Source of the DNA: Flavivirga amylovorans
GTDB lineage: Bacteria > Bacteroidota > Bacteroidia > Flavobacteriales > Flavobacteriaceae
Direction: 5' to 3'
Length of the DNA: 64,000 nucleotides
NCBI RefSeq assembly: GCF_030540875.1
Contig: NZ_JAUOEM010000008.1
Span: 62,001 to 126,000, forward strand
In this document: positions 12,553 through 63,291 of the stretch, piece by piece
How positions within the stretch are numbered: position 1 is the stretch's first letter
Layout of the letters: each line of letters begins with the position of its first letter
Program-made: the position numbers and the translations under genes
Notes under the pieces: model-generated
What the model was told of the DNA's origin: nothing
Database searches by the model: none
The model's input: only the letters and a program-made list of their open reading frames with translations

Positions 12553-13803
12553 ATGAAAACTTTATTAAACAATTACTTAAACACATTCAAAGGCTTATCA
12601 ACAGAAGTATGGTGGCTTGCATTAATAACACTTATTAATAGAGCAGGTACCATGGTCATTCCGTTCTTATCATTATACTTAAGGGAGAGTCTTAATTTTA
12701 CTTTTAATGATATTGGATGGGTTATGAGTGCTTTTGGTTTAGGCTCTGTTATTGGTTCTTGGTTAGGAGGTAAATTAACCGATAAAATCGGCTATTATAA
12801 AGTCATGACATTTAGTTTGCTTGCAACTGGTATGCTGTTTATAGCATTGCAATTTCTAAACACTTTCGTATCATTCTGTTTAGGCATATTTTTGGTTATG
12901 CTTGTTGCAGATATGTTTCGTCCTGCCATGTTTGTTGCCTTAAGTGCTTATAGTAAGCCAGAAAATAAAATACGATCAGTTACTTTAATTCGTTTGGCTA
13001 TAAACCTTGGTTTTTCTGCTGGACCTGCTATTGGAGGTCTTATAATTACCTCGCTTAGTTATGGTGGTTTATTTTGGGTAGATGGTATTACATGTATGAT
13101 GGCTACTTTAGTTTTAATAAATGTTTTGAATCCTAAAAAAGCTAAAATTCTGGATGATGTAAAAACTAAAAACCCGAAATCTGCTTATGGTGATAAAGCA
13201 TTTTTAATATTTCTCGCTGCTATGGTTCTTTTTGGTATTGTATTCTTACAGTACTTCTCTACCATGCCATTATATTATAAAGATGTACATCATTTAAGTG
13301 AATTTGATATAGGCATTATTCTAGGGATGAATGGTTTTATCATTTTTGTATTTGAAATGCCTTTAATAAAATGGTTAGAAAACACCAATTTCACTAAATC
13401 TGGGCTCATGCTTTTTGGTGGTGTTCTAACGGGTTTAAGCTTTATTATCTTAAACTTTACAAATTGGGCTGGTGTTTTAATAATAGGTATGTTGTTAATG
13501 ACATTTGGGGAAATGATAGCGTTTCCTTTTTCAAATGCATTTACTATGGATAGAGCGAAAAAAGGTAATCAAGGAGAATATATGGCCTTGTACAGTATTG
13601 CTTTTTCGGTAGCTCATATATTTGGTCATAATGCAGGTATGCGAATGGTAGATGCGCTTGGTTTTGATAATACCTGGTATATTATTACATTACTTGCTGC
13701 ACTTTGTGTTTTCTTGTTATTTATACTAAGACACTATTTAAATGCAACAAAAAAACGTAAAGAAAAAATAAAAGAAGAAGAAAAAGAAATTTTATGGATT
13801 TAA
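12553..13803 (+). CDS. MFS transporter
   Basis: This 416-residue inner-membrane protein has about twelve hydrophobic helices. The major facilitator loop 2-3 signature appears as GSWLGGKLTDKIGYYKVM near residues 66-83, matching the Gx3DRxGRR-type pattern. The overall look is of the MdtH-like drug/proton antiporter branch, but the substrate is unknown. The C-terminus is a basic/acidic tail, KKRKEKIKEEEKEILWI. The last 10 bases overlap the start of the VOC gene at 13794, indicating translational coupling. The organisation MFS-VOC suggests a detoxification or export unit; this is inference from families often involved in resistance. Confidence 0.92.
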   Translation: MKTLLNNYLNTFKGLSTEVWWLALITLINRAGTMVIPFLSLYLRESLNFTFNDIGWVMSAFGLGSVIGSWLGGKLTDKIGYYKVMTFSLLATGMLFIALQFLNTFVSFCLGIFLVMLVADMFRPAMFVALSAYSKPENKIRSVTLIRLAINLGFSAGPAIGGLIITSLSYGGLFWVDGITCMMATLVLINVLNPKKAKILDDVKTKNPKSAYGDKAFLIFLAAMVLFGIVFLQYFSTMPLYYKDVHHLSEFDIGIILGMNGFIIFVFEMPLIKWLENTNFTKSGLMLFGGVLTGLSFIILNFTNWAGVLIIGMLLMTFGEMIAFPFSNAFTMDRAKKGNQGEYMALYSIAFSVAHIFGHNAGMRMVDALGFDNTWYIITLLAALCVFLLFILRHYLNATKKRKEKIKEEEKEILWI

Positions 13804-14171
13804 ATCAAATTACCATACCGTCTTTAGATGTTGAAAAAGCAACCGCATTTTACAAAACCTTGGGATTGCATCTTATTGTAGATGCCATCCCAAGATATGT
13901 ACGATTTGAATGCCCTGATGGCAATAGTACATTTTCAATTCATAAGGTAGAGGCTTTACCAAAAGGTAACGGTATTACTATATATTTTGAAGATGATAAT
14001 CTTGATGATTTAGTTGTTAAACTACAAGATAAAGGTATCATTTTTACACAACTACCAGAAGACAAATCGTATTTATGGAGAGAAGCTCACTTGCAAGACC
14101 TTGATGGAAATAATATCATTATATTTCATGCTGGGAAAAACAGAAAAAATCCACCATGGCGTATCAATTAA
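13794..14171 (+). CDS. VOC family protein (glyoxalase/bleomycin-resistance fold)
   Basis: The 125-residue product has the paired beta-alpha-beta-beta-beta modules of the vicinal oxygen chelate fold: ITIPSLDVEKATAFYKTLGL at residues 6-25, FECPDGNSTFSIH in the middle, and AHLQDLDGNNIIIFHAGKN at the end. The metal-site positions are partly present (a Glu in the first half, the terminal DLDGN turn), so it may be an enzyme or a binding protein. It overlaps the MFS gene by 10 bases and is followed 14 bases later by the original start of the DJ-1/PfpI lipoprotein, forming one probable operon. Precise function is unknown. Confidence 0.88.
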   Translation: MDLNQITIPSLDVEKATAFYKTLGLHLIVDAIPRYVRFECPDGNSTFSIHKVEALPKGNGITIYFEDDNLDDLVVKLQDKGIIFTQLPEDKSYLWREAHLQDLDGNNIIIFHAGKNRKNPPWRIN

Positions 14172-14185
14172 TATTAAACAAGCGT

Positions 14186-14208
14186 ATGAAACATTTGTTT
14201 TATATAAT
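14186..14208 (+). pseudogene. separated 5' end of the DJ-1/PfpI lipoprotein gene
   Basis: ATG at 14186 encodes MKHLFYI before a 160-bp element interrupts the frame. Joining this to the sequence right of the element, with one copy of the 3-bp target site removed, gives MKHLFYIITMLLFISCNSS in frame, which is a complete lipoprotein signal peptide. In the present sequence this frame instead reads into the element and stops at 14350. Confidence 0.75.
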
Positions 14209-14368
14209 GAACTCATTTAGACTTTTTGGATTTAAGCGAAAATTAGAAGTTTTTGGCTATGTTGAAGGCTTTTTTGAGTTGCATAGCAGAGCTACGGAAG
14301 GAAAAAAAGACAAAAACAGAGCTGAAAACAGCAATTTTTTAGCAAATTGAAAAAGTCTAAATGAGTTC
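14209..14368 (+). mobile_element. MITE-like element, copy 1 (inside the DJ-1/PfpI gene)
   Basis: This is a 160-bp element with terminal inverted repeats GAACTCATTTAGACTTTTT (left) and its complement (right). It is flanked by AAT on the left and AAC on the right, a 3-bp target duplication with one change. Two further copies lie at 37181 and 63132. It carries no transposase. It has an open frame that reads through part of it from the left, but frames are not conserved between copies, so it is not coding. The right terminal repeat contains ATGAGTTC, which supplies a start codon to the interrupted gene. Confidence 0.9.
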
Positions 14369-15104
14369 AACAACCATGCTTCTTTTTATAAGCTGTAATT
14401 CTTCTAAAAAAAGGAAAGAAACTACCGATAATCAGATACTGAAGCAAGAACATAAAAAACAGTTTCCTAAACTTGAGCCTACTAGGTATAATGTTGCATT
14501 CCTGATTATGAATGGCACTTATAATACAGAACTAACAGCTCCTTTTGATATTTTTCAACACACAATATTTAGAGATAATATCAAAGCTATGAACGTATTT
14601 ACTGTTGCTAATACCGATGATGCCATCACTACTTTTGAAGGTATGCGAATACGTCCAGATTTTAATTACCTAAAAGATTCAATACCTCAAATCGATATTC
14701 TTGTTGTACCTAGTGCAGAACATCATTTGGACTCCGATTTAGAGGATATTACCATGATCAATTTTGTAAAACAGGTAGATAAAAATGCACAATTTATTAC
14801 CTCGCATTGTGATGGGGCGTTTGTTTTAGCTAAGGCAGGATTACTTGATAACGCCGTTTCTACAACATTTCCAAGCGATATTGACAAAATGAGAACCATG
14901 TTTCCTAAACTGGATATTAGAAAAGAGCTACTCTTTGTTCATGACGGAAAATATATTACTTCAGCTGGTGGCGCAAAAAGTTTTGAAGCTGCTTTATATT
15001 TATGTGAGCTTCTTTATGGGAAGAAGGTGGCACAAGCTTTAGCAGGTGGTTTGGTGATTGATTGGAACCTAGATAGTATACCTCATTTAATAATTAAGAA
15101 ATAA
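14361..15104 (+). CDS. DJ-1/PfpI family lipoprotein, signal peptide shortened by insertion
   Basis: The body is a DJ-1/PfpI domain: LIMNGTYNTELTAPFDIF at the first strand, FEGMRIRPDFN, DILVVPSAEHH, and the nucleophile elbow TSHCDGAFVLAKAGLLD with the conserved Cys. Members include amidases, deglycase-like and chaperone-like proteins and effector-binding domains of AraC regulators; the role here is unknown. The present frame begins inside the right terminal repeat of the 160-bp element (ATG at 14361) and reads MSSTTMLLFISCNSS. It has no basic n-region and only 11 residues before the lipobox Cys, so export may be impaired. The likely ancestral start is ATG at 14186. It is followed by a helical protein gene 3 bases later. 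Confidence 0.85.
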   Translation: MSSTTMLLFISCNSSKKRKETTDNQILKQEHKKQFPKLEPTRYNVAFLIMNGTYNTELTAPFDIFQHTIFRDNIKAMNVFTVANTDDAITTFEGMRIRPDFNYLKDSIPQIDILVVPSAEHHLDSDLEDITMINFVKQVDKNAQFITSHCDGAFVLAKAGLLDNAVSTTFPSDIDKMRTMFPKLDIRKELLFVHDGKYITSAGGAKSFEAALYLCELLYGKKVAQALAGGLVIDWNLDSIPHLIIKK

Positions 15105-37180: not shown

Positions 37181-37337
37181 GAACTCATTTAGACTTTTTG
37201 GATTTAAGCGAAAATTAGAAGTTTTTGCCTATGCTGAAGACTTTTTTGAGTTACATAGCAGAGCTACGGAAGGAAAAAAAACAAAAACAGAGCTGAAAAC
37301 AGCCATTTTTTAGCAAATTGAAAGTCTAAATGAGTTC
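37181..37337 (+). mobile_element. MITE-like element, copy 2
   Basis: This 157-bp copy has the terminal inverted repeats GAACTCATTTAGAC and GTCTAAATGAGTTC. It is flanked by a perfect 3-bp target duplication TAC (37178-37180 and 37338-37340). It is highly similar to copy 1, in the same orientation, with small deletions near the right end. It lies between the glnA terminator and the antiporter gene and breaks no gene. Confidence 0.92.
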
Positions 37338-63131: not shown

Positions 63132-63291
63132 GAACTCATTTAGACTTTTTCAATTTGCTAAAAAATGGCTGTTTTCAGCTCTGTTTTTGTCTTTTTTTCC
63201 TTCCGTAGCTCTGCTATGCAACTCAAAAAAGTCTTCAACATAGGCAAAAACTTCTAATTTTCGCTTAAATCCAAAAAGTCTAAATAAGTTC
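63132..63291 (-). mobile_element. MITE-like element, copy 3 (inverted)
   Basis: This 160-bp copy is inverted relative to the first two. It has the terminal repeat GAACTCATTTAGACTTTTT at the left and its complement (with one change, TAAATAAGTTC) at the right. It is flanked by a perfect 3-bp duplication AAT (63129-63131 and 63292-63294). It sits in intergenic DNA between rho and the next gene and disrupts nothing visible. Confidence 0.92.

Follow-up and report, generated by a model that had tools for sequence, protein, structure and literature searches.

Within the 64,000-nucleotide stretch of Flavivirga amylovorans DNA analysed here (the window; contig NZ_JAUOEM010000008.1, positions 62,001 to 126,000), the gene of a DJ-1/PfpI lipoprotein was found to be interrupted, between its start codon and its lipobox, by a 160-bp miniature inverted-repeat transposable element (MITE). 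It is likely that a non-autonomous MITE of the IS5 type jumped recently into this conserved gene and parted the start codon and the basic n-region from the lipobox, whereby export as a lipoprotein would be abolished. The DJ-1 domain would have stayed open from an ATG of the terminal repeat through a chance match of frame, and little or no product would be made, because translation from the natural start is now confined to a 54-codon open reading frame (ORF) and the ATG of the repeat, at 14361, is poor and enclosed in a predicted hairpin. Some cytoplasmic protein might still arise at a low level if ribosomes reinitiate at 14361 or 14376. The event looks like ordinary damage to a gene. The locus is a clean and young example of an export signal broken by a MITE, for which empty sites exist. 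It also calls for caution in annotation, since the remaining ORF resembles an intact cytoplasmic protein of 247 aa.

The element and its target site

The element, which runs from GAACTC to GAGTTC (14209-14368), has the features of a MITE. The first 19 bases at its left and right ends form perfect inverted repeats, target duplications are present, and it is short and devoid of a transposase gene, the longest listed ORF across it being of 64 aa with its start upstream of the element. The initial annotation had proposed a 3-bp target site; a 3-bp duplication is indeed present, its left copy AAT and right copy AAC differing by one mismatch. The terminal 18-mer was matched six times in the window with at most two mismatches (two ends of each of three copies), against a shuffle mean of 0.02 (n=100). 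The two further copies in the window lie at 37181-37337 and 63132-63291.

The MITE occupies at least 40 distinct places in its own genome, 40 of 127 candidates having been scored; the search gave 72 rows, 32 of which repeat these places on the other strand because the element is partly palindromic. Matches were found in 12/12 genomes of the genus Flavivirga (best candidates scored), the one in G006 being weak (E 7e-4). Movement of the element can be deduced from the empty site in relatives. Thirty copies of the own genome were submitted to a closer analysis, of which 28 were delimitable and 2 were skipped. The 3-bp duplication was exact in 21 of these 28 and had one mismatch in the other seven, one of which (L019) was mis-delimited at 289 bp.

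The interrupted gene and its empty sites

The membership of the protein in the DJ-1/PfpI family rests on a match to PF01965 with 59.6 bits (cut-off 26.6), and its domain is intact in a 247-codon open frame, as first proposed. As to a named enzyme activity (deglycase, glyoxalase III), six NCBIfam models were matched, all below their own cut-offs. The insertion point corresponds to codons 7-8. Sixty genomes were searched, the own genome included, and 27 of them contained a match to the DJ-1 protein. An orthologue with 63-92% identity was present in 16 other genomes; all further matches were to weaker paralogues or to regulators. In all 16 orthologues, inspected by eye, the start codon leads without interruption through a hydrophobic stretch to the lipobox Cys, in agreement with the earlier proposal that a mobile element had split the signal. 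Comparison of the sequences confirmed the insertion, which among the sampled genomes was seen only in the own genome.

The empty site reads ATGAAACACCTCTTTTATATAACAACTATTC in G001, whose orthologue is the closest at 92%, and ATGAAACACCTATTTTATATAATAACTATTC in Flavivirga rizhaonensis (G008), and comparison of relatives, which had been suggested as a check, thus revealed no genome with the same layout. The empty-site target is AAC in the former and AAT in the latter; either copy of the duplication could therefore be the altered one, and the ancestral signal is read as MKHLFYI(T or I)TM... The claim that removal of the element restores a lipoprotein signal is accordingly borne out by both empty sites, the exact Ile that was then given being one of two options. 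The position of ATG 14376 is occupied by ATT in both relatives, and this ATG also looks derived.

Relation to IS5-family elements

The ends of L101, L212, L218, L220 and L221 are common to the MITE. In the genus a single decayed element with a DUF4096 transposase was found (L101, in G010), the two ends of which show 2 and 1 differences from those of the MITE over 18 positions. A survey of the family gave DUF4096 matches in 6/199 genomes, and one of these six, G158, was found to contain elements of about 0.9 kb with ends 1-3 mismatches from the MITE ends. The transposase of L212 matched the IS5 model NF033580 (NCBIfam) with 119.6 bits (cut-off 110) and also passed the Pfam DUF4096 and DDE models. 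The 3-bp duplication at six 0.9-kb copies was exact in three (L212, L218 and L221), had one mismatch in two and two mismatches in one. These IS5-family DUF4096 elements have terminal repeats GAAGTGATTTAAACTTTT and AAAAGTTTAAATGAGTTC, with 1-3 mismatches to the MITE ends; they differ from the MITE in their length of 0.9 kb and in carrying a transposase, and none was found in the own genome. From the match of the ends to elements of related genomes, the element at 14209-14368 is therefore assigned to the MITEs of the IS5 type, of an ordinary kind.

A parent had also been sought among the DDE_Tnp_1 (PF01609) proteins of the genus, with 67 matches, and no matching pair of ends occurred in the 30 loci fetched; it was then found via PF13340. 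The three PF01609 loci of the own genome lack MITE-like ends. A search of the own genome for an autonomous partner gave no PF13340 match, and one decayed copy was found across the 12 genomes of the genus. The own genome was likewise without a DUF4096 transposase in this search, and the MITE may therefore be immobile there at present.

Lipoprotein signal, start codons and translation

Among the named homologues 83 loci were found and 80 were kept, some of them from the same genomes as the 16 orthologues. A lipoprotein-like N-terminus was present in 80/80 (70 by a strict script and 10 by eye), and no homologue began at the position equivalent to 14361. K or R occurred within the first seven residues in 71/73 parsed homologues (7 of the 80 were not parsed). 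The orthologues thus have a basic n-region, a hydrophobic stretch and a lipobox Cys behind one start, and the present frame does not. Its N-terminus, MSSTTMLLFIS followed by the lipobox Cys, contains no K or R, as the initial annotation had noted, and neither ATG 14361 nor ATG 14376 gives a basic n-region or a normal lipoprotein signal. Export of the protein is thus expected to be lost.

The start codons were likewise as first described: ATG 14186, ATG 14361 with the preceding in-frame TAA, and ATG 14376. Reading of the codons revealed no other ATG, GTG or TTG in the DJ-1 frame before the DJ-1 domain. In the consensus each end of the element reads TAA ATG AG outward, the repeat reading ...TAAATGAG... 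in the same direction. As RNA, bases 14209-14367 (the element minus its last base) are predicted to form a hairpin of -54.9 kcal/mol, compared with a shuffle mean of -28.5, and ATG 14361 lies inside it. According to a study on Flavobacterium johnsoniae (PMC6847099), initiation is favoured by A at -3, -6, -12 and -13, and structure matters as well. The bases at these positions are T, G, G, T for ATG 14361, A, A, A, G for ATG 14376 and C, A, T, A for ATG 14186. ATG 14376 therefore looks the better start of the two that remain. The T, G, G, T found for ATG 14361 also led to the rejection of a Kozak-like signal that had been considered for the terminal repeat. A search of the + strand over 13701-14400 for the promoter motif TAnnTTTG, with up to one mismatch, gave matches within the upstream glyoxalase gene alone and none in the element.

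The suggestion that a new start is supplied by the element is weakly supported: ATG 14361 is present and in frame. Its base context and the strong predicted hairpin speak against its use, as does ATG 14376, which lies outside the element and looks better; its frame match would be a chance of one in three once the gene was hit. An ORF of at least 100 aa starting inside the element was found for this copy only and for 0/27 other delimited copies of the own genome, and the supply of starts is therefore no habit of the element. When element ends in 56 loci of the own genome and relatives were examined, the same single long ORF was recovered, the next longest being of 55 aa, and 15 of the ends listed had no ATG. 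A general role of the MITE as a mobile start site was thus rejected, one long ORF being found among 28 own-genome copies and the ends in 56 loci.

Table 1. Features of the interrupted locus (window coordinates)
Feature	Position	Strand	Remarks
MITE, 160 bp	14209..14368	.	40 or more places in the own genome; match in 12/12 genus genomes; 28-copy consensus
Left terminal inverted repeat, 19 bp	14209..14227	+	perfect against right repeat
Right terminal inverted repeat	14350..14368	-	perfect against left repeat
Left target-duplication copy AAT, 3 bp	14206..14208	.	empty sites of relatives
Right target-duplication copy AAC, one mismatch	14369..14371	.	empty sites of relatives
Remaining DJ-1/PfpI ORF, 247 aa	14361..15104	+	PF01965
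Short ORF, 54 aa	14186..14350	+	original start through element to TGA 14348-14350
First possible ATG of DJ-1 frame, in right terminal repeat	14361..14363	+	in-frame TAA 14358-14360 before it
Second possible start, ATG	14376..14378	+	just outside element; A at -3, -6, -12
Glyoxalase-like gene	13794..14171	+	directly upstream; ends 37 bp before element

An alternative, which we regard as rather unlikely, is that the protein was relocated. Ribosomes starting at ATG 14186 would open the hairpin as they pass through the element, terminate at TGA 14350 and start again at 14361 or 14376, giving a cytoplasmic DJ-1 protein. The distance from the stop to these starts is short (10 and 25 nt, respectively), a translating ribosome would be expected to expose the hidden ATG 14361, ATG 14376 has A at three of the positions favoured in F. 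johnsoniae, and the domain is intact. However, the bases at -3 and -6 of ATG 14361 (T and G) are unfavourable, and the minimum-energy fold, but not the centroid, places part of ATG 14376 in a weak local stem. Moreover, the homologues have kept their lipoprotein signal, which points to the envelope as the place where the protein works, and the chance frame match suffices to account for the ATG. That the MITE moved a DJ-1 lipoprotein from envelope to cytoplasm in one step, with the old start driving a leader ORF by which the hairpin is opened and ribosomes are passed on to a start within or next to the element, appears distinctly improbable. If such a coupled restart does work, the locus would exemplify the relocation of a protein by a mobile repeat in one step.

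It is very unlikely that the shortened N-terminus still acts as a weak lipoprotein signal, with export reduced and not lost. The lipobox LLFISC is kept, with its Cys at residue 12 counted from ATG 14361, but no basic residue precedes it, in contrast to nearly all parsed homologues, and the hydrophobic run is of five residues. An ancestral layout or an assembly error, for which no support was found although the species is known here from one genome, is extremely improbable given the absence of the element from all 16 orthologues, the 3-bp duplication and the multicopy nature of the element with matching ends elsewhere.

Age of the insertion and use of the gene

The copy in the DJ-1 gene differs from the 28-copy consensus at 3/160 positions, one of these differences being common to other copies, and the insertion is therefore considered young. 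In a three-way comparison with G001 and G008 (243 codons), the branch of the own gene had a synonymous divergence (dS) of 0.39 (0.387), a nonsynonymous divergence (dN) of 0.031 and a dN/dS of 0.079; by dS, G001 and G008 are nearer to each other than to the own genome. The insertion was probably a late event on this long branch.

Several observations weigh against a recent insertion that left little or no product. The 247-codon frame has neither stop nor frameshift, and one unique change occurs at columns invariant in 11 other sequences, which themselves have 0-4. The low branch dN/dS (0.031/0.387) looks as if the gene were still used, and the native starts of the homologues are mixed, with A at -3 in 32/73, at -6 in 26/73 and at -12 in 49/73. 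Many native starts thus lack A at -3 or -6, and the base context of ATG 14361 carries modest weight as an argument against it. Most of the long branch probably predates the insertion, which softens the argument from dN/dS, and the low value mostly reflects the time before the insertion. As the insertion is young, dN/dS and the unique changes cannot tell use from disuse.

No close orthologue of the gene was found in 4/11 other genomes of the genus. In Flavivirga algicola (G011; L040 / L144) the orthologue begins with GTG, and its frame breaks shortly ahead of the domain through a frameshift; this gene may have been lost independently, or its sequence may be in error. From the absences together with this frameshift, the DJ-1 lipoprotein gene is judged to be dispensable in the genus. 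The own genome encodes a second DJ-1-like protein (L059, contig C8) with 31% identity and, by eye, a lipoprotein-like N-terminus, which might cover for the broken gene.

Comparison with known elements

Palindromic mobile elements within genes are of a known kind (review PMC10969869). IS5-family MITEs of Bacteroidota, for example BrickBuilt and others in Porphyromonas gingivalis (PMC4596501), resemble the present MITE in being short and multicopy, with ends that match IS5-family insertion sequences. Their end sequences are different; BrickBuilt contains a minisatellite and promoters and is reported there as always intergenic. The ERIC and RU elements fused to enterobacterial gene starts (PMC2759123) are similar in that the N-terminus of an annotated protein is encoded by a small palindromic mobile element; in the present case the element contributes no more than Met-Ser and part of a Ser codon, and the signal has been lost. 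The Rickettsia palindromic elements are likewise palindromic, about 150 bp long and located inside genes, but PMC10969869 describes them as in-frame fusions, whereas this MITE interrupts the frame. PMC3189936 and PMC5896051 served as background only. The element and the locus were not found among the matches listed in a literature search that covered papers outside subscription.

Other copies and a sister repeat family

In 13/27 other delimited copies of the own genome an ORF ends at most 60 bp before an edge of the element. At L021 a 492-aa ORF runs up to a MITE copy, whose first base supplies the last letter of its stop codon. Repeats of a sister family, with ends GAACTCATCTTGACTTTT and several lengths between 95 and 181 bp, are also present in the own genome. 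Several single ends of this family have no partner nearby, and in G158 ends of this type bound a 0.9-kb element (L222).
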